Shown here: piece after piece, positions 3,792 to 36,231 of the stretch | Numbering within the stretch: the stretch's first letter is position 1 | Layout of the letters: each line of letters begins with the position of its first letter | Source: Paraglaciecola sp. | Lineage (GTDB): Bacteria; Pseudomonadota; Gammaproteobacteria; Enterobacterales; Alteromonadaceae | Reading direction: 5' to 3' | DNA: 36,231 nucleotides | Assembly (NCBI GenBank): GCA_009993955.1 | Contig: JAACSL010000033.1 | Coordinates: forward strand, 1 to 36,231 | Program-made: the position numbers and the translations under genes | The notes under the pieces: generated by a model | The model's input: only the letters and a program-made list of their open reading frames with translations | Told to the model about the DNA's origin: nothing | Databases searched by the model: none

Positions 3792-3952
3792 CGCTGAAAT
3801 CGTTGCTGGTATTTTTATCAGTGAGATTGTCGCGAAACTAACTAAATAACACACATATATCGACACAGTGTTCGGGGTGTTTTCTGCTTAAACCGGCAGG
3901 GGATCGAGGACTGGGATATATGGAGGCCTAACCCCATATTGAGGAAAGTATA
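3792..3952 (+). promoter_or_regulatory. rpsB 5' leader, likely S2 autoregulatory element
   Basis: The rest of the 312-bp map-rpsB gap is the untranslated leader of rpsB. Just before the start codon is a hairpin with stem ATATGG (3918-3923) / CCATAT (3934-3939) and a 10-nt loop, followed at once by the Shine-Dalgarno sequence GAGGAAA (3941-3947). In E. coli and relatives the rpsB leader carries a conserved structure (t44/tff RNA) by which S2 represses its own operon. Position and hairpin make this leader the likely counterpart, but I could not align it to the known consensus. The short plus-strand reading frame across 3622-3849 is not coding. Confidence 0.5.
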
Positions 3953-23199: not shown

Positions 23200-24567
23200 A
23201 TGTCTATTACTGACCGCCTTCGCATCGCACTGCTGCCTCGGCTAGTCGATGCTGAGCATAGCCTTGTTGTGGCCTATAGTGGTGGACTCGACTCCCATGT
23301 CTTGCTGCATGCCTTGGTTGAATTAAAAGCACAAAAACAATTCGCCAACCCACTGACAGCCATCCATGTTCATCATGGCCTCAGCCCCCATGCTGACGAT
23401 TGGCTAGTGCATTGCCAAACAAGCTGTGAAGCGTTAAATGTGCCATTGCAATGGGCAAAAGTGCAAATTAAGGCTAAACCAAGACACAGCTTGGAAGCCC
23501 AAGCTCGAGAGGCTCGCTATCAGGCATTGTTAACATTGGCGCCAGCCAACAGTCTAGTTCTGTTAGCGCAGCACCAAGACGACCAATTAGAAACGGTGTT
23601 ATTGCAATTAAAACGCGGCTCAGGTCCAAAGGGGTTGGCAGGCATGGCGGAACATTCCAGCCAGCAACTAGCTGGCAAAATAGTCAATTTTTTGCGCCCC
23701 TTGTTAGATGTCACTCGCCAACACATCCACGATTATGCACAGCAACATGGTTTGCGCTGGGTTGAAGACGAGTCAAATCACAACCACCAATTTGAACGTA
23801 ATTTTTTACGCCATGAGGTGATCCCCGTATTAACTAAAAAATGGCCGTCGTTGGGGCAAACGGTGAGGCGCAGCGCCAGTTTATGTGCCGAACAACAAAC
23901 ACTATTAGAGCAAGTGAGTGCAGAAAAACTGGAGGCTGTGCGGGCGAGTCACCATACCCTCCACATTGACGCCCTAAAAAAACTCAGCGCAGAATGGGTG
24001 CAGCAAGTAGTAAGGTATTGGTTGGCAGAATTGGGCATCAGCAGTCCGGCGCACTCGGTATTAACACGCTTATATGCTGAACTCATCAATGCACGAGTTG
24101 ATGCCAATCCCATTATTCAGTGGCAAGGTTGGCAATTCCGACGCTTTGATAAGCAACTGTATGTCATCCCCTTAGTTGAAGACGTGCTCCCGCACACTTT
24201 GCTCTGGCAAGGGCAGAAAGAGCTTGTGCTGCCAGCGACACTTGGCACACTGGTATTTAAGCCACCCCTGAGTGATGAGCAACACAATGTCCCGGTTTTT
24301 CAGCCTGATTTGGGGCCCTTGCGCTTACATTTTGGTCAGTTTTCCCAACGTTTTAAGCCATACAATGCTCAGCATTCAAAACCCTTAAAACAATGGTACA
24401 AAGCCTGGGAAATTCCACCGTGGCAACGCGATAAAATTACCGTGGTCAGTCAAAATGCTGAGCCACTGGCTTTGTTGATAGAAGGCGCATGGGTATTGGC
24501 TCAACCAAAAACGATGCCATCAAATTCGAACAAGCAGCCTTCCCTCATGGCGATCCACCACCGCTAG
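23200..24567 (+). CDS. tilS: tRNA(Ile)-lysidine synthetase
   Basis: Modifies C34 of the CAU-anticodon tRNA-Ile to lysidine so that it reads AUA. The N-type ATP pyrophosphatase P-loop is SGGLDSHVLLHAL, near residue 29, and LLAQHQDDQLETVLLQLKRG follows; the middle has RNFLRHEVIPVL; the C-terminal tRNA-binding domain ends with KQWYKAWEIPPWQRD and LIEGAWVLA. The 455-residue length is close to E. coli (432). It is the last core gene; the accessory operon starts about 120 bp downstream without a clear terminator between them. Confidence 0.95.
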   Translation: MSITDRLRIALLPRLVDAEHSLVVAYSGGLDSHVLLHALVELKAQKQFANPLTAIHVHHGLSPHADDWLVHCQTSCEALNVPLQWAKVQIKAKPRHSLEAQAREARYQALLTLAPANSLVLLAQHQDDQLETVLLQLKRGSGPKGLAGMAEHSSQQLAGKIVNFLRPLLDVTRQHIHDYAQQHGLRWVEDESNHNHQFERNFLRHEVIPVLTKKWPSLGQTVRRSASLCAEQQTLLEQVSAEKLEAVRASHHTLHIDALKKLSAEWVQQVVRYWLAELGISSPAHSVLTRLYAELINARVDANPIIQWQGWQFRRFDKQLYVIPLVEDVLPHTLLWQGQKELVLPATLGTLVFKPPLSDEQHNVPVFQPDLGPLRLHFGQFSQRFKPYNAQHSKPLKQWYKAWEIPPWQRDKITVVSQNAEPLALLIEGAWVLAQPKTMPSNSNKQPSLMAIHHR

Positions 24568-24687: not shown

Positions 24688-25344
24688 ATGAATAAACATA
24701 ATCACGATTTCTCCATGGCATTTAAAGCAAATAATGCAACCCAAGAATTACGCCGTTATCTGTTGTCGGAAACGCTGTTGGAAGATTCAACAGAGTATAT
24801 TCCCCTGGCTGCGGTTGTAGAATTATTGGCCACAACCACACAAACCATAAAACACCGAATTAAAGAAGGCAGACTCAAAGAGAAAACCTTTTTTTTATTG
24901 GAGCCAAAACGCAAGGCGTGGCATGGGGTAGAGGCGGGTGGTGTCAAAACACTGTTGATGGAAAAAGCGCAGCGCCGCGAAAAAATTATGCAACAGGTAG
25001 AATGGTGTGCCCAGCACGGGCAATACACGACGTATTCACAGATCATGCAAGAAGCAGGAATGGATTGGAATTCCCCGCCTGATCGCAAATACGTCAACCA
25101 AATTTTAGAAGAGATAAATCATCAGTCATTTAACGAAACGGTGGATTCTGCGACCACTTGTCTGAAGGGCTGTGTGGTTGTCAGCGTGAATGAGGGGATC
25201 CCAACGGCGTCTTTTTATGACTGTGCCATTGAATTGGGACTAGCAGAACCTGCTGATTTACGTGATATGCTACAAAAACGTGAGTTTTGGCAAGAACAGT
25301 TTGATTTGACCAAGGAGTTATACGGGCATGGAAAACAAAGCTAA
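24688..25344 (+). CDS. Unrecognised two-part protein, possible DNA-binding regulator
   Basis: I do not recognise this gene. From ATG 24688 it has 218 residues; ATG 24715 (MAFKANNATQEL) is equally possible and neither has a good SD. Residues around YIPLAAVVELLATTTQTIKH look like a helix-turn-helix or excisionase-like segment (a helix, a turn and a TTTQTIKHRIKEG recognition-like helix). The second half (GQYTTYSQIMQEAGMDWNSP ... CVVVSVNEGIPTASFYDCA ... LGLAE) resembles from memory a small uncharacterised domain with a YTTYxxL...VVVxxxxGxPxxxF pattern. It overlaps the ABC ATPase gene by 17 bp, so it belongs to the operon, perhaps as its regulator. Function unproven. Confidence 0.6.
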   Translation: MNKHNHDFSMAFKANNATQELRRYLLSETLLEDSTEYIPLAAVVELLATTTQTIKHRIKEGRLKEKTFFLLEPKRKAWHGVEAGGVKTLLMEKAQRREKIMQQVEWCAQHGQYTTYSQIMQEAGMDWNSPPDRKYVNQILEEINHQSFNETVDSATTCLKGCVVVSVNEGIPTASFYDCAIELGLAEPADLRDMLQKREFWQEQFDLTKELYGHGKQS

Positions 25345-26197
25345 GCACTTAGTGCATCTTGAAGATGTTTATAAGGGTTATAATGGTAAAATCATTCTCA
25401 AAGACATCGACTTAAAAATACGCGAAGGTGAATTTTGTGCGGTAGTTGGCCCTTCAGGTTGTGGTAAAAGTACCTTATTACGCTTGATTTTGGGACAGGA
25501 GTTGCCAGATTCCGGCACTGTTGCCATTGATGGCCAGCCCATCACCGAACCCGACCCATCCAGAGGGGTGGTGTATCAAAAATATAGTTTGTTTCCCCAT
25601 CTCACGGTATTGCAAAACGTGATGCTTGGGCCACGTTATTTGGGGCTCAATGGCAACAAAAAAGCCAGTAAAGCAGAGCTGCGTGATCATGCCATGTATT
25701 ATCTCGAGCGAGTGCGCCTGCAACATGCCGCTGAGCAATATCCTGATCAATTGTCTGGAGGCATGCAGCAGCGCGCTGCCATCGCCCAAACCTTGATTGC
25801 CAAGCCCAAAATTTTACTGATGGATGAACCCTTCGGGGCCCTTGATCCTGACACTCGAGAGCAGTTGCAGGTGTTCCTGCTTGAGTTGTGGGAAAGCCTC
25901 AAGTTGACTATTTTGTTTGTCACGCATTCCCTCGAAGAAGCCTGTTATGTGGGAACTCGACTCCTCGCGTTGAGTCAGTATTACCGTGACGACCATGCAG
26001 ATATTAGCCAACACAACGGGGCCAAAATTGTTGAAGATCACCCCCTGAGCAAACATGCGGCAGCCACACGCAGCAAAGATCAGCCAGAGTTTATTGAGTT
26101 GATTAACCGGGTGCGCAGCAACGCTTTTGACCCTAAAATTTTGCAACACATTCACGACTTCAATCTCAGTCATCCCGATAGTTTTAGAACGCTATAA
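25328..26197 (+). CDS. ABC transporter ATP-binding protein, nitrate/taurine/urea type
   Basis: Cytosolic ATPase driving an importer. In 289 residues: Walker A GPSGCGKST (41-49), Q-loop region VVYQKYSLFPHLTVLQNV, signature LSGGMQQR (142-149), Walker B ILLMDEPFGALDP (162-174) and H-loop His200 in FVTHSLEEA. The family is that of SsuB/TauB/NrtD. About 80 residues follow the H-loop, including a polar tail with QPEFIELINRV. The partner permease is at the far end of the same operon, about 7 kb away, and the soluble binding protein is just before that permease. It starts inside the preceding gene and is 13 bp from the next. Intact. Confidence 0.92.
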   Translation: MENKAKHLVHLEDVYKGYNGKIILKDIDLKIREGEFCAVVGPSGCGKSTLLRLILGQELPDSGTVAIDGQPITEPDPSRGVVYQKYSLFPHLTVLQNVMLGPRYLGLNGNKKASKAELRDHAMYYLERVRLQHAAEQYPDQLSGGMQQRAAIAQTLIAKPKILLMDEPFGALDPDTREQLQVFLLELWESLKLTILFVTHSLEEACYVGTRLLALSQYYRDDHADISQHNGAKIVEDHPLSKHAAATRSKDQPEFIELINRVRSNAFDPKILQHIHDFNLSHPDSFRTL

Positions 26198-26210
26198 CAA
26201 GGAACCGCTC

Positions 26211-27913
26211 ATGTTTATTAAGATGTCTCATTTATTGATCGTTGGCCTCAGTTGTTTACCAATGTTGGTTAATGCGGTGACACCCATTCAAGTGGTGCCA
26301 GTAGAAAAACGGACCCTACCCCCTCTGCAAAGCTTAAAATCGGGGCCCTATGAATTACCGATTATTACGTGGGGGGGGACATTGCCACTATTCTTGCCAA
26401 TGGCAACGATGCGGTAACCCAAGCTAACTCGATCTTTGCGCAAAATAATCTGCGCTTTAAGCTCAAGCGAGTCGACGTGTTTGAACAACAACTTAATGAC
26501 TATATCAGTGGTAAAACGCCCTATTTACGCGGCACCATGAGTATGATCAACATGGCTGCTGCCGCCGTTAAAAAACACCCAGAATTAACTCCACATGTTT
26601 TTTATCAGTTAACCTGGTCGGCCGGTGGTGATGCCTTGGTGGCAAAAGGCTCGATTCAGCGCCCCGCAGATCTGTGTGGTAAAAGCATTGCCATCAATTA
26701 CGACGGTCCGCACTTAAATTATGCTAACAAGGTATTAACGGATGCCGGTTGTAAGCTCAGTGATGTTCAATTTGTGTGGACCAAAGATTTAACTGGCACC
26801 GCTGAAACCCCCATGGAAGCCTTGCGCCAAGACAATGTTGATGCGGCGTTTGTGATCATACCTGACGCCCTTGCCCTTACATCTGGAGGTGGCACGGGTG
26901 ACGGGTCTGAGTCGTCCATCAAAGGTGCGCGTATTTTATTGTCAACCAAAACGGCCAACCGTGTGATTGCTGATGTTTATGCAGTCAGGCAGGACTTTTT
27001 GCAGCAACATCGCGATCAAGTGGACGCGTTGGCGGCTTCGTTGTTCAAAGCACAAGAACAGTTACAGTCGTTGAGCAAAACCAAAGTGTCGGGTTATCAA
27101 ACGCTAATGCAGGCATCCGCTCGTTTATTGCTCGATGCCCCTGATGCCATAGCAGACACAGAAGGCTTATTGGCTGATGCTGAAATTGCTGGTTTTACAC
27201 AAAATGTGCAGTTTTTTCAAAACGGCAATAACTTTCGTAATTTCACCAATGTCGCAAAAGAATCCGCTGATGGGGTTCAGGCACTCGGCCTAATTTCTGC
27301 CCCAGGGACCCTTAAAAATGCAGGGCTAAATTACGCCCTGTTAGCTTCAGGTATCGCCACCGCTGCGCCAGAAAAACCAAAGTTTGATAGTAACGCTGTG
27401 GCGCAAGTCTTGGATAACAAACAAAAGCAAGGCAGCCTTGAGAATGCCACGATTTTTGAATTTGAAGTGTATTTTAAACCGAATCAACAAGTGTTTGATG
27501 CTTCACTGTACGCCAATGAATTCCAAAAAGTTTTTGAGATGGCCAGTACTTATGGTGGCGCGATTATCACCGTGGAAGGGCATTCGGATCCTCTGGGCTA
27601 TCTTAAAAAGAAAAAAGAAGACGAATCTAATTTTGTGCTCAACCAAATCAAAACCAGCGCCAAGAACTTGTCACTGACCCGCGCCAATCAAGTGCGTCAG
27701 TCGATTGTTGACTATATGCAAGGGAAAAAAGGTGCGGGGATGGATGAATCTCAATTTGGTGTCATTGGTCACGGCATCGAACTCCCCAAAACCGGTATCT
27801 GCGGCAGTGATCCCTGTGCCCCTAAAACGGAAAAAGAATGGCTGTCGAATATGCGGGTGGTCTTTCGCATTTTGCAAGTTGAAGCAGAAGAATCAGTCTT
27901 TACACCACTTTAA
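26211..27913 (+). pseudogene. Periplasmic substrate-binding/OmpA fusion protein 1, frameshifted
   Basis: The N-terminus is a signal peptide (MFIKMSHLLIVGLSCLPMLVNA). A type 2 periplasmic-binding fold of the phosphate/NMT1-like class follows, then a C-terminal OmpA-like peptidoglycan-binding domain with IFEFEVYFKPNQQVF, ITVEGHSDPLGY and LSLTRANQVRQS. Frame 26211 ends at 26417. The reading continues in a second frame from a G run at 26371-26378: one extra G would read ITWGGDIATILANGND and give a 567-residue protein. The OmpA contact Asp (GHSD) and Arg (LTRA) remain, but about 20 additional residues lie between them. It probably tethers a binding protein to the cell wall. The frameshift may be real decay, slippage or a sequencing error. 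Confidence 0.75.
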
Positions 27914-27940
27914 CAGCAACCGGCAAGGAAGGAGACAAGC

Positions 27941-28708
27941 ATGAAAATTAAAATTATTGTCCTGCTGGTAATAGCAGGATTGGTTTGGCAACGATTTTTT
28001 AGTGGCAATGAAGCCGAGACCCCAGCCTTTGATGAAGTGAATGTAAGCGATACTTACGCTAAGCGTGGCGTTGATTACAGCTGGCCCGGTGTGAGTCAAA
28101 ACAATCAGCAATTAGCCAGTAATAAACTGGCAAAAAACTTCTACATTGTATTTGATGGTTCAGGCTCAATGGAGCATCAAAGTTGTGAGAGCGCAGACAG
28201 TAAAATTGATGTGGCTAAACAAGCACTGAGTACATTTTTTGGCACTCTTGCTGCTGATGTGAATGTCGGCTTGTTTCTGTTCGACAATAATGGCGCCGGT
28301 GAAGTATTGCCTATCTCTGCATTAAATACGCAAAAACTTGAGCTTATAATTGCCCGCATTCGCGCCGGTGGTGGCACACCTTTGGGCGAATCCATGCGCA
28401 AAGGGTATCAGTCGTTGTCACAACAGGCCCTGCGGCAGCAGGGGTATGGCGAATATAATTTGGTGGTGATCACTGACGGTGAAGCCAATGATGGGGCAGT
28501 GATGAATGCCATGGTTAGCCAAATTACCCAACATTCATCCGTCAATATTCACACCCTAGGTTTTTGCTTAAGCGGTGACCATGCTCTCAATGTTCGTGGT
28601 GTAGTGAATTATATTTCAGCCAACAATGCAGAGCAGTTATTGCAAGGCCTTAAAAATGTTGCGGCTGAAGCTGAAAGTTTTGATATCCGTGCCTTTGATG
28701 GAGTGTAG
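27941..28708 (+). CDS. Membrane-anchored von Willebrand factor type A protein
   Basis: 255 residues. An N-terminal transmembrane anchor (IIVLLVIAGLVWQRFF, residues 5-20) after MKIK implies a periplasmic domain. The vWA fold has a complete metal-ion-dependent adhesion site: DGSGS at 72-76, Thr146 in GGTPLG and Asp179 in ITDGE. Such domains bind a protein partner through Mg2+/Mn2+. A good SD (GGAGA) precedes the ATG. It stands between the two substrate-binding/OmpA genes, 5 bp from the second, so it likely works with them in the envelope. Partner and substrate are unknown. Intact, unlike both neighbours. Confidence 0.85.
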   Translation: MKIKIIVLLVIAGLVWQRFFSGNEAETPAFDEVNVSDTYAKRGVDYSWPGVSQNNQQLASNKLAKNFYIVFDGSGSMEHQSCESADSKIDVAKQALSTFFGTLAADVNVGLFLFDNNGAGEVLPISALNTQKLELIIARIRAGGGTPLGESMRKGYQSLSQQALRQQGYGEYNLVVITDGEANDGAVMNAMVSQITQHSSVNIHTLGFCLSGDHALNVRGVVNYISANNAEQLLQGLKNVAAEAESFDIRAFDGV

Positions 28709-28713
28709 TCAGC

Positions 28714-30234
28714 ATGAATAAGACCATTGCTGGGATTGTCTTGGTCATTGGCTTACTGATTGTGGGCTATGTAAAATTTTACAGCGTTGAACAATCCAAG
28801 GACATCACGGTAAATACCTCGGATGCGGCGAATTTTAAGTATTCCTTAAAAATTGGCGTAGACAGTTGGACCGGTTATTACCCCTTGTGCAGTAAGTATT
28901 TTCGTTCTTCGTTGCGTAACGCGGGCATCCAATTGCAATGTGTTAATGACAGCAACGCTTCGCTGCACTCAAACGAGGCGACCTCGACTTTGCGGTTACC
29001 ACCGTGGATGCCTACCTAGCATTGGGTAAAGCTGCACAATTTCCCGGTACGATTGTTAGCGTGATTGATGAATCCAAGGGCGGTGATGCGCTGGTGTGTT
29101 ATCGCGACATGGTGGCCTCCATCGATGAGTTAAAAACGCTGCCATCTATTCGTGTTGCACTCACACCTGATAGTCCGAGTGAACATTTATTACGAGCCTT
29201 AGCCGTGCATTTTGACGTGAGCTTTTTTCAGCAAGGCGGCCAATGGAAGGTGCCAGCAAATGGCTCAGATGACGCCTTAAACAAGCTAAAAAATAAGCAG
29301 GTTGATTGTGCGGTGGTGTGGGAGCCAGATGTAACCAAGGCCCTGCAACTCGTTGGTACACATTAAAAAATTGGTAGTGAAGACACCGAAAAACTGATTG
29401 TTGACGTGTTACTGGCCAGTCGAAAACTGGTGCAAAACAACCCACAACTGATCGAAAGCATGTTGTCAGTGTATTTTGATACCTTGCAGTACTATCAACA
29501 AAATCCGGCCAGCTTTATCGAAGAACTCAGCAAGACAAGTGAGTTGTCAAGCAAGGCAGCCCAAGACATGTTAAATGGTGTGCGCTGGGTCACGTTGTCG
29601 GAAAACGCCATTGATTGGTTTTCATCCAAAGGCAGTACACGCAAAGAATATTTAGTGGAGTCGATTCAAAGCGCTAATCACATATTAAATGCGGTGGGTG
29701 TTCTGAAAGGCAATCCATTACCTGCCAGCGATGCCTATTCCATTCTCAATAGCACCTTTGTTACCACCTTGTTTGACCAGCAAGTCATGGCCAGCCCCCT
29801 TACCAAGGAGAGTACTAGTAAAGCCACGTTTCAAAGCTTAACACCCAGTGAATGGGCAAAGCTTGCCAACGTCGGTACCTTAAAAATTCGCAAGGTTAGT
29901 TTTTCGCAATCTAGCAGCGACTTATCCATGGATGCAAAACGCCAACTGGATGAGGCCGCTAGTGATTTATCGCATTATCCTAACTTTCGCATCTTGATCA
30001 AAGGGCATACAGGCACTAACGGCGATGTCGAAGCTAACCTTAAGTTATCCAGCAGTCGTGCAAAAAGCGGTGTTGCGTTACCTTAACATTGTACATGGCA
30101 TCGATGAGGCACGAATGTTGGCTCTTGGTGTTGGCATGCAAGAACCGTTATTGCAACAGCCAAATGAAAACTTACGCGCCTATCAGGCACGGTTGCCACG
30201 AGTGGAACTGCAGCTCAAGGTTGGAGATCGTTAA
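28714..30234 (+). pseudogene. Membrane-anchored substrate-binding/OmpA fusion protein 2, multiply disrupted
   Basis: Reconstructed length is about 506 residues. An N-terminal membrane anchor (TIAGIVLVIGLLIVGYVKFY) leads to a type 2 periplasmic-binding domain (LKIGVDSWTGYYPLCSKYF ... LDFAVTTVDAYLALGKA ... VDCAVVWEPDVTKALQLV) and a C-terminal OmpA-like domain (FRILIKGHTGTNGDVEANLK). Three lesions: a frameshift near 28971-28973 (AAA, restored by one extra A), an in-frame TAA at 29364-29366, and a frameshift in AAAAA at 30062-30066 (restored by removing one A). In the OmpA motif the usual GHTD Asp is Gly (GHTG), while the Arg (SSSRA) is kept. The stop ends one base before the XpaC-like start. Confidence 0.75.
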
Positions 30235-30235
30235 G

Positions 30236-31036
30236 ATGGCAATGCCACAACTTGAGATGTCAGACAAAGAGCTATCCAAACGTTTGCTCAAAGACGCAGG
30301 CAACGCACCGTTGACCCTGGCGTCTGGGGTGAGCACTGTGTTGTTGGGTGTGTCTAGCGTGTTGTTTATGAGCTCTGAGTGGCTGGTAGTATTGGCGGGG
30401 TTAACAGGGCTAAGTATCGCAACATTAACCGGCTATTTGTTAAAAAAAACGGTGTTTGGTCGGCATGCAGCGATGCTGAAAATCATTGAAAAAGTGCGTA
30501 GTGAGACCATGCAAGAACGCACACAAATGATGGAGCTGGTGAAAAACAAACTTGCTGAACTTTCTCATCGTGTTGGCCTGGCACAGATGAGTCAACTGGA
30601 AAGCAAGTTTAGTGCTTTTAGCCAAGTACTCGACCTGCAGTTTGACCGTGATGAATTGACCCATAAACGTTACTTGACGGTGGCCGAGCAATTGTACTTT
30701 GGCGCCATTGATAATTTACGCACGGTAACCACCTTGCAATTAGGCATGCAAGCCATCGATGTGGATGGTATCCAACAATCCTTAAACAAACCTGATCTCG
30801 ATGCTGCGCGCCAAGAGGCCTTGCAACAACGTCTCACTATTTTTGAGCAGTCAGCGCAACGTGAACAAAGTATTTTAGCCAGCAATGAACAAGTCATGAC
30901 CAAATTGGATGAGGTGACCAGCCGCCTCAGTGCTATTCAATCAAGGGAAGGTCTCAGTTCATTAAAACTAGACAGTGCCATGCGTGAAATCAGGCACTTA
31001 ATTGAACGTGTAGATGATTACGATAGACAACAATAG
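30236..31036 (+). CDS. XpaC-like membrane protein
   Basis: From ATG 30236 (MAMPQLEMSDKELSK), 266 residues. Two hydrophobic segments form a hairpin near the N-terminus (about 26-46 and 49-69), followed by a long, charged, mostly helical cytosolic part with coiled-coil character that ends DSAMREIRHLIERVDDYDRQQ. Size, topology and position directly before a TelA-family gene match XpaC (named for 5-bromo-4-chloroindolyl phosphate hydrolysis), which pairs with a TelA homologue in Bacillus and elsewhere. Biochemical role unknown; a membrane partner or anchor for TelA is an inference. Intact, with a possible start in an upstream frame rejected because it overlaps the preceding OmpA domain. Confidence 0.7.
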   Translation: MAMPQLEMSDKELSKRLLKDAGNAPLTLASGVSTVLLGVSSVLFMSSEWLVVLAGLTGLSIATLTGYLLKKTVFGRHAAMLKIIEKVRSETMQERTQMMELVKNKLAELSHRVGLAQMSQLESKFSAFSQVLDLQFDRDELTHKRYLTVAEQLYFGAIDNLRTVTTLQLGMQAIDVDGIQQSLNKPDLDAARQEALQQRLTIFEQSAQREQSILASNEQVMTKLDEVTSRLSAIQSREGLSSLKLDSAMREIRHLIERVDDYDRQQ

Positions 31037-31046
31037 GACTTTTGTT

Positions 31047-32249
31047 ATGCAAGAAATAGCCACAAAAACAGCCACCAAACTCGATGTTGCGCCTTTGACT
31101 ATGCCTAAAATACAAGGTTTAGAGGGTGAACTGATGGTCACCGCAAGTACCGCCGTGGTTGCCCCTGAGATTCAACAGCAAGCCGATAGTTGGATTGACA
31201 GTGTTTTGGCCATTGAGCCAAAAAATCTTGAATCCCAGCATGCCGCCAGTGTGGAAATGAAAAACTTGGGCAGCAGCTTGGAAAATGAATTGCTGGAGTT
31301 GTCACAACTGTTGCAAACCCCGATGTCAGAATTAATGGAAGACGCGGAGAACGGCGGTGACGTAGCACGTGACTTACTGAAACTTGAAGAAACCGCGCGC
31401 TCTATTGATCCCAATGGCTACGACTTTTCGAATATCTCTGGGATCCGCGCTTTTTTAAGCAAACTCGGCATACTACCGACACCTCTGAAAATGTGGATTG
31501 CCAAGTTTCAATCTACCGAATCGGTGATCAAAAGCATCGAAAAAGGTTTGCGCCAAGGTAAAGACAAGTTGGCCCGCGACAACATGACCCTGAAAAGTGA
31601 TCAAATCCGCTATCGCCAACACTTGCTAAAACTGGATGACTACATTCAATTTGCCCGCTATGTGGATGAGCAGTTTGAAGCCAAATTGGCGACGGTTACT
31701 GATGCCGAACAAAAACGTTTTTTGACTGACGAAATCATGTTTCCGATTCGTCAGCGTCATCAGGATTTACTGTCGTCAAAAACCGTCTTTCAGCAAGCGT
31801 GGGTGACCTCGGAATTCATTATCAAAACCAATGAAGAATTAATCCGCGGGGTTGATCGTGCCCTTAAACATACTTTGGTGGCGCTGAGTGTTGCTTCATC
31901 ACTGGCCATTGCCCTAGCACGTCAGAAGAAAGTGATTGTCGCGCTGCAAAGTACCAAGGAAGTCACGGAGAAGATGATCAGCGACATTTCTAACCAGTTA
32001 CTTGAGCAAGGCACGGCGATCATGGCACAGGCATCCGAACCCTTTTTACAGGTGGAAGTCATGAAAGCTGCCTTTACCAAAACCTTGCAAGCCATGGAAG
32101 AAGTCAGCCAATATCGCAGCAATGCTTTGGGTGAAATGAAAAAATCAGTGGCGGATCTGCGCGGCTTAACCTCAGACATGGATAAAAATATCCAACGTAT
32201 CGAACGTGGTCATGAGGCCAAAAAAGAATTTCAGGTATTACTCGGTTAG
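31047..32249 (+). CDS. telA: TelA-family (toxic anion resistance) protein
   Basis: 400 residues from ATG 31047, preceded by AGGACT; the longer frame from 31014 would run back into the upstream gene. The protein is soluble and almost wholly alpha-helical. Family-like stretches are NELLELSQLLQTPMSEL, LGILPTPLKMWIAKFQSTESV, IKSIEKGLRQGKDKLARDN and IALARQKKVIVALQSTKEV. TelA is named after the tellurite-resistance locus kilA-telA-telB of plasmid RK2; chromosomal relatives occur widely and their activity is not known. Here it follows an XpaC-like gene by 10 bp and precedes a transport binding protein by 26 bp. A link to tellurite is not implied by the context. Intact. Confidence 0.85.
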   Translation: MQEIATKTATKLDVAPLTMPKIQGLEGELMVTASTAVVAPEIQQQADSWIDSVLAIEPKNLESQHAASVEMKNLGSSLENELLELSQLLQTPMSELMEDAENGGDVARDLLKLEETARSIDPNGYDFSNISGIRAFLSKLGILPTPLKMWIAKFQSTESVIKSIEKGLRQGKDKLARDNMTLKSDQIRYRQHLLKLDDYIQFARYVDEQFEAKLATVTDAEQKRFLTDEIMFPIRQRHQDLLSSKTVFQQAWVTSEFIIKTNEELIRGVDRALKHTLVALSVASSLAIALARQKKVIVALQSTKEVTEKMISDISNQLLEQGTAIMAQASEPFLQVEVMKAAFTKTLQAMEEVSQYRSNALGEMKKSVADLRGLTSDMDKNIQRIERGHEAKKEFQVLLG

Positions 32250-32275
32250 TCTTTTACATAAACAAGGAGAAACGT

Positions 32276-33331
32276 ATGTTTAATTTTAAAAAAGGTCTAT
32301 TTGCCAGTGCATTAGTTGTCATGTCTATGGCCAGCAGTCTCAGTGTTCATGCCGCTGATAGCTTTAAAGTATGTTGGTCGCATTATGCAGGATGGGAGCC
32401 GTATGCCCTGTTAGAGAGCACCGGCATCTTAAAAAAATGGGAGCAAAAATACGGTATTGATATCGAAGTGGTGTTGATCAATGACTACATAGAATCCATT
32501 AACCTTTACACCGCAGGTGAGTTTGACGCATGTACCATGACTAATATGGATGCGCTAACCATCCCAGCGGTAGGCGGCATTGATACCACGGCCATTATTT
32601 TGGGCGATTATTCCAACGGTAACGACGGGATCGTGCTGAAAAATGGCAAGAGCGTCATGGATTTGAAAGGTCGTACCGTGGACTTAGTGGAGTTTTCTGT
32701 TTCTCACTACCTGTTGAGCCGCGCATTAGATATGAACGGTATGAGTGAACGTGATTTGAAAGTGCGCAATGCCTCCGATGTGGATATTCCAAGCATTTTT
32801 AAAACCGAAAAAAATGCGGCAGTGGTCACGTGGAATCCGCCTTTGCAAACGGTACGCAACATGGAAGATGCGCAACTAGTGTTTGATTCGAGTCAGATCC
32901 CCGAAGAGGTGATGGACTTATTGGTGGTGAAGTCCTCTGCTGATGAGCGTTTTAAAAAAGCCATCACCGGGGCGTGGTATGAGTTAATGCAGAAATTGAG
33001 CACACCCGGCAATGAAGCCAGTCGGCTGATTTCGCTGATGGCGGCCAACGCAGGGGCAACCGATGCAGAATTTCGTGCGCAATTACGCACCACCGCGATG
33101 TTTTACAATCCAGCCGAGGCGGCAGCGGTGTTTGCTTCAGACAAAGCCGCCAAAACCCTCGACTTTATTCGGATTTTTTCCTTCGAAAAAGGTTTGTTTG
33201 GTCAAGGGGCAAGCTCGGCTAATTTTGTTGGTATCGCCTTACCCGGCTACAAAGTATTGGGAGACAAGATCAACATAAAATTGCGTTTTGACCCAAGCTA
33301 TATGCTGATGGCGGCTGAAGGTAAGCTTTAA
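32276..33331 (+). CDS. Soluble ABC substrate-binding protein, 'urea carboxylase region' type
   Basis: 351 residues with a clear Sec signal peptide (KKGLFASALVVMSMASSLSVHA, cleaved near 26) and a type 2 periplasmic-binding fold. FKVCWSHYAGWEPYALLEST, VLINDYIESINLYTAGEFDA and TMTNMDALTIPAVGGID recall the putative urea ABC binding proteins usually found near urea carboxylase (NitT/TauT superfamily). There is no urea carboxylase here, so the ligand is uncertain. The strong SD AAGGAGAAA and the hairpin after the gene suggest high expression relative to the permease, as is usual for binding proteins. Intact. Confidence 0.82.
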   Translation: MFNFKKGLFASALVVMSMASSLSVHAADSFKVCWSHYAGWEPYALLESTGILKKWEQKYGIDIEVVLINDYIESINLYTAGEFDACTMTNMDALTIPAVGGIDTTAIILGDYSNGNDGIVLKNGKSVMDLKGRTVDLVEFSVSHYLLSRALDMNGMSERDLKVRNASDVDIPSIFKTEKNAAVVTWNPPLQTVRNMEDAQLVFDSSQIPEEVMDLLVVKSSADERFKKAITGAWYELMQKLSTPGNEASRLISLMAANAGATDAEFRAQLRTTAMFYNPAEAAAVFASDKAAKTLDFIRIFSFEKGLFGQGASSANFVGIALPGYKVLGDKINIKLRFDPSYMLMAAEGKL

Positions 33332-33351
33332 ACACACTTTGTAATGACTCA

Positions 33352-33367
33352 GGCGAGGAAACTCGCC
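33352..33367 (+). promoter_or_regulatory. GNRA hairpin between binding-protein and permease genes
   Basis: A perfect 6-bp stem GGCGAG (33352-33357) / CTCGCC (33362-33367) with the stable tetraloop GAAA. There is no T-run. It may protect the upstream binding-protein message from 3' decay, as stem-loops do in other importer operons. It also contains GAGGAAA, a possible SD for an ATG at 33368, so it could occlude that start. Confidence 0.6.
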
Positions 33368-33391
33368 ATGTTGACGGAAAAGGATAACACC

Positions 33392-34222
33392 ATGGCTAGA
33401 CCCAAGCTCTTTGGCTTACATGCTCAACCTGGAAAATGGACAGGGCGCTTGTTGGCTCTAGTGCCATTTATAGTGGTGATAGGGTGTTATGCATATTTCA
33501 GTCATCTGCGCTTGTTAGACAACCCCAATGATAAACTTTTGCCATCACTGACCAGCATGGCGGATACAGTTTATCGCATGGCATTTACTGAAGACACGCG
33601 CACTGGCGAGTATTTAATGGTCAACGATACACTTGCCTCAGTTAAGCGCATAGCTGCTGGGGTAGGTATCGCCACCGTTGTTGCGCTGTTGCTGGGTTTG
33701 AACATGGGTTTGTACAGGGGCATGCGTAGTTTGTTTAACCCCTTTGTTAACTTTATGTCTATGATCCCCCCCTTGTCGATTTTGCCTATTTTGTTGATCA
33801 CCTTTGGAGTAGGGGAGTTGGGTAAAATCATGCTGATATTTTTGGGCACGGTGTTAATCATGACACGCGATGTGACCTTGTATGTGCGCAACATCCCTAT
33901 TGAGATGATCATCAAAGCGCAGACACTCGGTGCTGGACCTTTGGCCATTACCTATCGAATTATCCTGCCTCAAGTTGTGCCGAGGCTGTTGGACAGTTTA
34001 CGTCTATGTTTGGGCGGAGCGTGGTTGTTTTTAATTGCCGCCGAGGCCATCGCGGCCAGTGAGGGATTAGGTTATCGCATCTTTTTAAGTCGCCGTTATA
34101 TGGCCATGGACATCATCATTCCTTATGTGTTCTGGATCACCTTTCTGGGGTTTACCTTTGATCTATTGCTGCAAACCGCCATCAAAAAACTCTACCCTTG
34201 GTATGCAAAAAATAAGGATTGA
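33392..34222 (+). CDS. ABC transporter permease, nitrate/taurine/urea type
   Basis: 276 residues from ATG 33392 (MARPKLFGLHAQPG), chosen for the SD AAAGGAT just before it; starts at 33344 and 33368 are possible and would add 16 or 8 residues. About six membrane segments are visible, including LLALVPFIVVIGCYAYF and IATVVALLLGLNMGL. The cytosolic EAA-type coupling loop is AQTLGAGPLAITYRIILPQ. It pairs with the ATPase at the start of the operon and the soluble binding protein just upstream. Last gene of the operon. Intact. Confidence 0.9.
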   Translation: MARPKLFGLHAQPGKWTGRLLALVPFIVVIGCYAYFSHLRLLDNPNDKLLPSLTSMADTVYRMAFTEDTRTGEYLMVNDTLASVKRIAAGVGIATVVALLLGLNMGLYRGMRSLFNPFVNFMSMIPPLSILPILLITFGVGELGKIMLIFLGTVLIMTRDVTLYVRNIPIEMIIKAQTLGAGPLAITYRIILPQVVPRLLDSLRLCLGGAWLFLIAAEAIAASEGLGYRIFLSRRYMAMDIIIPYVFWITFLGFTFDLLLQTAIKKLYPWYAKNKD

Positions 34223-34309: not shown

Positions 34310-35539
34310 TCACCACGCAAGGCGGGCGACAACACGTTTACCCTCTGCATGCAGCAAAAACGACCAACCATTGCGCTCACACAATCGTTGTACTATGCCC
34401 AAGCCAAGACCATAACCTTGGGAAGCGGTTTCGCTTGGTGAATGCTGCTCGTCAGCAGCACTGCTAACCTGGTTGGTGACACATAATTCGTGTTCTTCAA
34501 TACGAATAGTGATGGGCCCTTGTGCATCAAGTGTGTGCTCGAAGGCATTGCGCACCAGATTATTCACCGCAATAAAAAACGCCTGAGGATGGCCGCAGAC
34601 GCTGGGTGAGGCGTATTTGTCAATTTCAACATCGAGGAATTTGCCATTCAGTAAATAACGCTGCTGTTCTATGGCTTTGTCAACCAGCGGCATCACTAAA
34701 AACTGCTCGTCATACAAGCCATCGTCGGTTTCGCGGGCGAGGCACAAAAACATTTCAATGGTGGTTTTCATGTCGAGGGTCGCTCGCCTTACCCGATCTA
34801 ATACCTTAACATCGGCTGCTGACAACTGGCTTTGTTCCAGTAGTTCAAGTGCCCCTGTTATCACCGTGATGGGCGTGCGCAATTCATGACTGGCTGAACT
34901 GGTAAAGTAGCGTTCTCTGGCAACAAAGGCGCTGATACGCTCGAGTGTCTTTTCAATGGTTTCGGCGAGCACACCCACCTCATCATCGCCAAATTGGCCA
35001 GACTCTACCCGTTTATGATCGTCGTCCGATAGATGCTCCAAGTCGATGTCTGCCACCACTTTAGCGAGCATTACAACAGGGGCAACCGCTCTGCGCATCA
35101 CAATAATACCCAGCCCGAAACCTAAGGTGCCGAGTGTACCCACAACACTGGTTATAACTAGCAGCAGCCACCAATCCTCTGACGATGCTGCTTCAATGCC
35201 GGCCACGTCGAACACCACAAAAGCCTGTTGCTGTGCATTGCCAGAAAAAAGCACTGCGACATGTAATTCTTCAGCTTCAAATTCGTACAAACCCTCTGCG
35301 GGCTTGGTCTGCGCCCACTCTCTGAGGGATTCTGGCAAGCTGGCAAGCGAGTTGTAGGCGCGAGGATTCACCGGTATGGCGGGATAGCTTTGGGCAGCAA
35401 CCTGCAACTGCTGAGTCAGTACTCGGTCTTCGCTTAACCTGATGGCGGCGAAAAACGCAAAGCCCCAAGCGATGCTGAGCAAGGCAACACAAATCGCAAA
35501 GGCAATGGCCACATGTTTGCGTAAACTGTGCCTAAACAT
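34310..35539 (-). CDS. Two-component sensor histidine kinase
   Basis: 409 residues. Two transmembrane segments (about 11-31 and 123-147) flank a periplasmic sensor region of about 90 residues. A HAMP-like linker follows, then the H-box SASHELRTPITV with phospho-acceptor His218, the N-box NNLVRNAFEHT and a G-box GYGLGLGIVQRLCERNG. No PAS domain is seen and the signal cannot be inferred. Its ATG abuts the stop of the upstream regulator with no gap, so the two are one unit. It is convergent with the ABC/TelA operon, so control of that operon is possible but unsupported. Confidence 0.92.
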   Translation of the reverse strand: MFRHSLRKHVAIAFAICVALLSIAWGFAFFAAIRLSEDRVLTQQLQVAAQSYPAIPVNPRAYNSLASLPESLREWAQTKPAEGLYEFEAEELHVAVLFSGNAQQQAFVVFDVAGIEAASSEDWWLLLVITSVVGTLGTLGFGLGIIVMRRAVAPVVMLAKVVADIDLEHLSDDDHKRVESGQFGDDEVGVLAETIEKTLERISAFVARERYFTSSASHELRTPITVITGALELLEQSQLSAADVKVLDRVRRATLDMKTTIEMFLCLARETDDGLYDEQFLVMPLVDKAIEQQRYLLNGKFLDVEIDKYASPSVCGHPQAFFIAVNNLVRNAFEHTLDAQGPITIRIEEHELCVTNQVSSAADEQHSPSETASQGYGLGLGIVQRLCERNGWSFLLHAEGKRVVARLAW

Positions 35540-36231
35540 TTAGTGGGCATCCTCGGCAATGCGGTAGCCGATGCGATGCACGGTACGAATTAATATGTTG
35601 TCAAACGGCTTGTCAATAGCCTGACGCAACTTATACATGTGTGATCGCAGTGCGTCACCATCAGGGGGCTCGTCAGCCCATAACAAGGTTTCAAGATCTT
35701 CGCGAGTTACTACAGAGGGGGTTTCTTCCATCAATCGTTGCAGCAGTTTCATGCCTGCGGGGTTGACATCGATGTGTCGACCCGCACGATGCACTTGCAG
35801 TGTCGACTTGTTCAAGGTCAGATCAGCAACCGTTAACAGCTTGTCGGTTTTTCCGCGTCTACGTTTGTACAGGGCCTGTAATCGTACATGCAGTTCTTGC
35901 AAGGCAAAGGGTTTGACCAAGTAGTCATCAGCGCCTGCCGCAAATCCCTTCAGTTTATCATCAAGTGTATCTCGTGCCGTTAGCATCAGCACAGGCGTAT
36001 CTACGTTGCCATCGAGGCGCAGTTTTTTGCAGAAGCTGAGGCCATCCATGCCGGGCAGCATCAAATCCAGCACAATAACATCGTAGGAATGGGTTAACGC
36101 TAGGTGCATCGCACTGATACCGTCATAAGCAAAATCCAGAATATAATTAACCCCAATCCTGTTTAAGAAATTGAACTAAATGCCTGTTCCAAGATCCGAT
36201 CTTTCGACCAAGAAAGTGGGAACCAACAGAG
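35540..36231 (-). pseudogene. OmpR/PhoB-type response regulator, disrupted receiver, cut by window edge
   Basis: The open part from ATG 36109 (189 residues) has the phospho-acceptor Asp in VIVLDLMLPGMDG, LMLTARD and the switch Lys in GADDYLVKPF, then a winged-helix DNA-binding domain (PAGMKLLQRLMEETPSVVTR ... LRSHMYKLRQAIDKPFDNI ... VHRIGYRIA). It lacks the first ~35 residues. Receiver-like sequence does continue upstream in the same frame (FLNRIGVN, DFAYDGISA), but a TAG at 36176-36178 interrupts it. Beyond that, LVERSDLGTGI reaches toward the edge and the usual paired acidic residues are missing. Either the gene is broken or bases are wrong here; the true start is outside the window. Confidence 0.7.

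Follow-up and report, generated by a model that had tools for sequence, protein, structure and literature searches.

A contig of Paraglaciecola sp. (assembly GCA_009993955.1, contig JAACSL010000033.1; positions 1–36,231 of the forward strand, 36,231 nt, called the window here) carries at 24688–34222 an operon of nine consecutive plus-strand genes, in which an ATP-binding cassette (ABC) importer is combined with two chimeras of a binding protein and an OmpA domain, a von Willebrand factor A (vWA) protein, a membrane protein, and TelA. The gene order is conserved in unrelated genomes, and the association is therefore beyond chance. The operon is apparently an undescribed envelope system, a variant of the TelA-XpaC arrangement. 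Our preferred reading, which is held tentatively, is that it forms a ligand-responsive module spanning the envelope, in which TelA is the inner effector and the importer an optional part. The chimeras are called SO1 and SO2, the membrane protein before TelA is called XPA, and the soluble binding protein is called SBP; loci are numbered with the prefix L.

Conservation of the gene set

The genes overlap or lie close together, no gap being wider than about 60 bp, just as the initial annotation, made from the sequence of the window, had described. Its assignment of the ABC ATPase, TelA, the soluble binding protein, and the permease was confirmed by PF00005, PF05816, TIGR03427, and a TauC/SsuC-type match, respectively. 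The annotation had also treated the genes as a unit that should be found together elsewhere, and this proved correct in a scan seeded with SO1. The scan used one genome per species and two short peptide patterns taken from four sequences, so that distant members were missed; it gave 63 loci in several phyla (by record title Pseudomonadota, Thermodesulfobacteriota (Desulfobacterota), Spirochaetota, Nitrospinota, Nitrospirota, Myxococcota, and candidate phyla). When presence was scored with per-gene profiles from 4 kb upstream to 9 kb downstream of SO1, all eight core genes were found in 24 of the 63 loci, with the importer genes on the opposite strand in L036 and L050. Duplicates and loci where the operon was absent (L005, L010, and L007–L009) were excluded from several counts; by its length and coordinates, L112 duplicates the contig of L015. 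In addition, a TelA search of a plasmid collection matched 17 records, six of them from Vibrio, and the three Vibrio plasmids that were opened have the identical nine-gene order.

To count how often each component occurs, we used the 48 loci whose downstream sequence reached 7.5 kb or more and set aside 15 of the 63 for a short downstream flank. SO2 was present in 47 (short OmpA-only forms included), vWA in 46, XPA in 36, TelA in 33, and SBP, permease, and ATPase in 31 each. A stricter recount required at least 4 kb upstream and at least 9 kb downstream, which kept 38 loci and set aside 25 of the 63; no importer gene was found in 12 of these 38 (in the locus only; importers elsewhere in those genomes were not searched). 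This bears on the earlier proposal that the importer takes up the ligand: the importer genes do accompany the set in most loci, and uptake may nevertheless be non-obligatory.

In a sample of 299 proteobacterial genomes, 50 had a TelA match at E 0.001, and in 45 the score exceeded the cut-off. Twenty regions seeded with TelA and three from an XpaC search made up a second sample of 23, of which 22 gave TelA by profile (all except L109). L106 has all eight core genes. In L103–L105, XPA adjoins TelA and the other core genes were not found there. The core of the system seems to be chimera-vWA-chimera-membrane bundle-TelA. Since this core occurs without a nearby importer, and XPA and TelA occur alone, the core might be a receptor-effector module to which the importer is a frequent addition.

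Variant loci

Among the TelA neighbours (51 of the 61 listed were scanned), XpaC (PF10112) was recognized in six, and SBP_bac_11 together with vWA in four. In L088, TelA, a binding-protein/vWA fusion, and XpaC are consecutive without an importer; the next exported protein is only a sub-threshold match to SBP_bac_11 (17.3 vs 25 bits). Furthermore, genuine XpaC (PF10112, 74–102 bits) occurs with SO1 and vWA in six variant loci (L047, L049, L052, L055, L058, and L072), and in L052 and L055 it lies between vWA and TelA, directly 5' of TelA.

In seven variant loci (L052, L054, L055, L056, L061, L062, and L072), a short OmpA protein stands in place of SO2. By eye, these short proteins have an N-terminal hydrophobic stretch. 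In L054, L062, and L072, a glycine-betaine-type binding protein (OpuAC) is also present near SO1 and TelA or XpaC. The short OmpA protein and the separate OpuAC protein can be described, from their domains, as SO2 split into its two functions. The OpuAC-carrying variants, which belong to Halomonadaceae and Desulfobacteraceae, suggest that the ligands of these variants are osmolytes. SO1 is present twice in both L061 and L062.

Binding domains, OmpA domains, and the vWA protein

The binding domains of SO1, SO2, and SBP are homologous to one another (hhalign probabilities of 98.2% and 97.5%) and are of the SsuA/TauA type. The alignments on which residue counts are based are subsets chosen for diversity (A7, A10, A14, and A16, with 36, 39, 27, and 24 rows). 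The initial annotation had pictured binding proteins tethered to the cell wall, and this stands for SO1 and is doubtful for SO2. In the SO1 OmpA domain, D461 and R492, the Asp and Arg that we take to be residues of the peptidoglycan-binding site, are invariant in 27 of 27 aligned sequences. By pattern, GH[ST]D is found in 54 of 67 SO1 proteins (two have other readings and 11 no match), and the Arg pattern in 60 of 67. By this residue test, the SO1 OmpA domain appears to retain a peptidoglycan site. In SO2, the Arg is likewise kept (pattern in 47 of 52; invariant in the 24 aligned). The Asp was found in only one of 52 SO2 proteins; 46 have another residue and five gave no match, and the SO2 piece of the window reads GHTG at this site. 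The SO2 domain thus seems to lack the expected Asp, and the presence of two wall-binding chimeras is doubtful. A simple hydrophobicity scan gave one hydrophobic segment in 48 of 52 SO2 proteins and in 44 of 63 vWA proteins.

The vWA protein (PF00092) had been annotated as having a complete metal ion-dependent adhesion site (MIDAS). This was borne out: in the alignment of 39 sequences, none departs from the DxSxS, T, and D of the site. A pattern search gave 41 of 64; the pattern is too strict for the Thr, and the alignment is the better test.

XPA and TelA

The description of XPA as XpaC-like in the initial annotation did not hold. PF10112 (XpaC / Halogen_Hydrol) had no match in the XPA of the window in the Pfam scan. 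It was absent from the 24 families reported for four XPA members (E up to 10) and from the matches listed (25 of 51 families) when 36 members were scanned with E up to 0.1. A comparison of XPA with ten proteobacterial XpaC proteins by hhalign gave a probability of 0.9%, and no PF10112 match was found in the genome of the window. The identity of XPA with XpaC was therefore rejected at the sequence level, and XPA is probably best regarded as a separate helical membrane family adjoining TelA.

In the XPA model (predicted local distance difference test score, pLDDT, of 89), a short first helix is followed by two transmembrane-type helices and a helical bundle. On a simple scale, two hydrophobic segments are found in 25 of 39 members and one in 14 of 39. 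XPA occupies the position of XpaC, next to TelA. From this positional equivalence, XPA and XpaC may be read as exchangeable in this type of operon.

Interrupted chimera genes

Both chimeras had been read as whole genes. Both genes are indeed present in the window, yet both are interrupted. In SO1, the frame shifts at a run of eight G (26371–26378). SO2 is in four pieces, with two frame changes and an in-frame TAA (29364–29366). Each piece alone resembles the relatives in L011, L064, and L012 (44–66% identity), and identity to the plasmid copy L004 is 29–57%. The intact operon genes show 44–73% identity to L011, L064, and L012. This range is close to that of the broken pieces, which means that any decay would be recent. 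Both the Vibrio plasmids and many chromosomes have unbroken SO1 and SO2 genes.

Housekeeping genes in the window were compared with NCBIfam models: 20 of the 20 tested are open in one frame. For 19 of them the match covers almost the whole model; for TilS it covers 395 of 439 positions. Since the four breaks lie in two operon genes and all 20 housekeeping genes are open, sequencing error is less likely to be their sole cause; one of the four sits at a homopolymer. This copy of the operon is probably decaying.

Distribution and transfer

No match to a TelA of the operon type was found in 21 genomes of the same genus and 37 of the same family. At E 1e-40, SO1 was found in three of 369 gammaproteobacterial genomes, including that of the window; the other two also carry the core, one of them without an SBP match. 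In two same-genus genomes, the 12–13 kb around tilS contained no operon gene; the sequence of a third stopped close to tilS and was left out. The SO1 tree tracks the phyla closely: it needs 10 label changes, where the minimum is eight and shuffling gives a mean of 26.1. In this tree, the window groups with an Alteromonadaceae metagenome-assembled genome (MAG), two Vibrio chromosomes, and two Vibrio plasmids (support 100/100). L033 and L035, two metagenome bins titled Bordetella parapertussis, lie beside a Nitrospiria bin (91/91); these titles are doubtful.

The absence from the 21 same-genus and 37 same-family genomes, taken together with the SO1 tree, is consistent with an old system that has been transferred horizontally on a local scale. 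The guanine-plus-cytosine contents of the operon (46.0%), its left flank (46.3%), and its right flank (49.7%) do not indicate a foreign segment. The histidine kinase to the right of the operon had a best match of only 32% identity (E 5e-29) in the 21 same-genus genomes, in which the response regulator was not searched; for TilS, the best match per genome was 47–61%. A foreign segment may thus extend to the end of the contig. A scan of viral contigs with SO1 gave no match.

Gene organization in the window

The operon (Table 1) is flanked on the left by tilS (23200–24567) and on the right by a convergent histidine kinase/response-regulator pair (34310–36109). Promoter and terminator scans of the operon gave sites no more numerous than in shuffled sequence, so that it is the gene spacing that points to a single transcript. 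The profile of the first gene gave matches in the Vibrio plasmids and in L012, a locus of an Alteromonadaceae MAG, and in no other locus examined.

Table 1. Genes of the operon in the window
Gene product	Position	Strand	Evidence or remark
First gene, possible regulator	24688..25344	+	No Pfam or NCBIfam family
ABC importer ATPase, TauB/SsuB/NrtD-like	25328..26197	+	PF00005, 122.6 bits; Walker and signature motifs by eye
SO1, binding-protein/OmpA chimera 1, interrupted	26211..27913	+	Open pieces 26211–26417 and 26369–27913
vWA protein, N-terminal hydrophobic anchor, complete MIDAS	27941..28708	+	PF00092
SO2, chimera 2, interrupted	28714..30234	+	Pieces 28714–29019, 29004–29366, 29406–30086, and 30025–30234
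XPA, two predicted transmembrane helices and a helical bundle	30236..31036	+	XpaC position, outside Pfam XpaC
TelA	31047..32249	+	PF05816, 155–156 bits vs gathering score 30
Soluble periplasmic SBP, SsuA-TauA type	32276..33331	+	TIGR03427, 470.2 bits vs cut-off 333.9
ABC permease, TauC/SsuC/NrtB type	33344..34222	+	Alternative start 33392 possible

Several other genes recur beside the operon. In the Nitrospinota loci L041 and L042, two tandem vWA genes replace the single one. The Vibrio plasmids L004, L005, and L006 have small proteins, membrane-bound by eye, 3' of the permease, and carry PRTRC and RctB-type replication genes. A family of about 200 residues lies beside the operon in seven loci (L016:6499–7101 on the minus strand, L020:7536–8120, L029:16100–16717, L033:18802–19389, L034:10642–11298, L039:19010–19618, and L071:7403–7972); of two members scanned, one gave a sub-threshold match only (Coq4, E 0.006) and the other none. 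Another neighbour recurs in six loci (L023:604–2073 on the minus strand, L028, L032, L059, L060, and L066), the L023 member being an AAA ATPase (PF00004, 109.7 bits). A protein of about 335 residues is found in four (L044, L045, L050, and L067), and its L050 member had no Pfam match at E 0.01.

Ligand

TIGR03427, which the SBP matches, bears the database name of a "putative urea" binding protein. In the host genome, there was no urease match, and urea carboxylase was matched only below the cut-off. The name is therefore unsupported in this host. A guanidine riboswitch was not found in the window, where a search at the Rfam gathering thresholds gave only a t44-type small RNA (RF00127, 71.6 bits; 3832–3932, immediately 5' of rpsB). 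Taken together, these results leave a urea or guanidine transporter unsupported. This means that two names are questioned, "putative urea" from the database and "XpaC-like" from the initial annotation.

Comparison with known systems

In the XpaC-TelA (YaaN) pair of Firmicutes, TelA likewise adjoins a small helical membrane protein, and the six variant loci with SO1 and vWA have a genuine XpaC; the operon of the window differs in that its membrane protein is outside PF10112. The xpaC-yaaN operon belongs to the sigma-W regulon of Bacillus subtilis, and the accessible portion of the source names no binding-protein/OmpA, vWA, or importer gene in it (PMC3498285). The L088 operon resembles the present one in that TelA is accompanied by vWA and binding domains, together with XpaC. 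Plasmids of Sphaerotilus and Variovorax also have TelA near a vWA or binding-protein/vWA gene. However, in these systems SBP_bac_11 is fused directly to vWA, and the OmpA domain and the ABC importer were not seen.

As far as the accessible part of PMC7824862 describes them, the Ter/TelA stress systems likewise have membrane-located TelA and vWA-type components. They differ from the operon in that TerC, TerD, and TerB were unmatched among the operon proteins scanned, and the vWA protein here has an N-terminal hydrophobic segment. The binding protein, permease, and ATPase are similar to those of TauABC/SsuABC, whereas the operon has one permease and one ATPase gene for three binding domains (two of them fused to OmpA) and a TelA core. 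In the part of the broad open-access literature search that was covered, the nine-gene composition is not described, and plasmid records name single genes but not the system.

Proposed mechanism and alternative explanations

In the proposed mechanism, SO1 would be secreted and held to peptidoglycan via its OmpA domain. The vWA protein, anchored by a membrane segment or a lipid, and the membrane-anchored SO2 would stand outside the inner membrane. SO1, vWA, and SO2 would bind a small ligand and one another, vWA doing so via its metal site. The helical bundle of XPA would relay the bound state to TelA, a putative helical scaffold that would act on the membrane from the cytosolic side. Where present, the SsuA/TauA-type importer and the SBP would import that ligand or a related one, so as to tune or end the signal. 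The binding domains probably see related ligands, because all of them are of one family. The output of TelA is probably membrane or envelope homeostasis; the links of TelA to envelope stress, as given in the accessible portions of the published accounts, suggest that this output concerns membrane integrity.

Several observations weigh against this mechanism. Two of the nine genes are broken in the window. In L061 and L062, SO1 and TelA are present but vWA gave no match, and some SO1 loci are without vWA or TelA matches. The importer-free loci were scored over the locus only, as mentioned above. The core genes co-diverge (r 0.68–0.91 over 24 loci, without a background control), which reflects shared inheritance and not contact. 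The layered topology suggested in the initial annotation broadly fits the hydrophobicity scan and the XPA model, but the cytosolic position of TelA was an assumption: one hydrophobic segment exceeds the threshold in 22 of 39 TelA proteins, and TelA may touch or enter the membrane. The TelA structure model is poor (pLDDT 65), and none of the solved structural relatives searched was informative on mechanism. As XPA has no detectable homology to XpaC, the Gram-positive phenotypes transfer only via TelA and gene position. Finally, the importer genes have a mean identity of 55–60%, and no component is better conserved than SBP (mean 60% over 24 loci); this also fits plain uptake by a simple nutrient importer.

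An alternative is that the system confers tolerance to agents that act on the membrane or wall, such as antimicrobial peptides, bacteriocins, or toxic ions, which would be captured in the periplasm as TelA and the bundle shield the membrane. TelA and XpaC are tied to nisin, tellurite, and envelope stress in the accessible portions of the literature: a disruption mutant of Listeria TelA (lmo1967) is more sensitive to nisin and tellurite (PMC12791056, citing Collins 2010), and a hypothesis on the Ter systems has TelA forming submembrane structures (PMC7824862). However, these data come from Gram-positive pairs or from Ter systems of other composition, and import of a toxic agent would be odd. 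This explanation seems unlikely, although it is the strongest of the alternatives.

Next in order, and again unlikely, is ordinary high-affinity uptake of the TauABC/SsuABC kind, in which the tethered binding proteins concentrate the substrate and TelA and XPA stabilize the membrane complex. The conservation of SBP, which also passes the NCBIfam equivalog cut-off, and the presence of the permease near SO1 in 31 of 48 loci agree with this. However, the 12 long-flank loci keep the chimera core without a nearby importer gene, importer-free TelA operons exist, and the urea label fails in the host. To our knowledge, vWA and TelA are not components of known TauABC/SsuABC importers.

A mechanical tether between peptidoglycan and membrane, in which OmpA and vWA hold the wall to an XPA-TelA scaffold and the binding domains are structural remnants, would agree with the OmpA-type domains and hydrophobic segments of the chimeras; it is very improbable, as the conserved residues of the binding domains and the conserved importer appear to favour real ligand binding and the SO2 OmpA domain is without the expected Asp. 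Least probable of all is an anti-phage or plasmid-competition system on mobile DNA: it would agree with the Vibrio plasmids, the sporadic occurrence of SO1, and the discussion of Ter systems, which include TelA, as defence in the accessible part of PMC7824862, but PADLOC matched only ATPase models and one MotB/ZorB-type model (with one piece for each broken gene), and the SO1 tree follows the phyla, unlike fast-shuffled defence genes.

Implications

Beyond the module itself, the system might be an undescribed, ancient, multi-phylum ligand-sensing machine in which receptors tethered to wall and membrane and a metal-dependent vWA adaptor control TelA from outside via an exchangeable XpaC-type bundle; this wider claim is still rather doubtful. 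TelA is widespread, and its biochemical role is not settled. Its recurrent tie to exported binding proteins and vWA gives candidate partners, a topology, and a class of candidate ligand. If the wider claim is true, the long-sought role of TelA would be that of an inner effector of ligand-bound periplasmic receptors.

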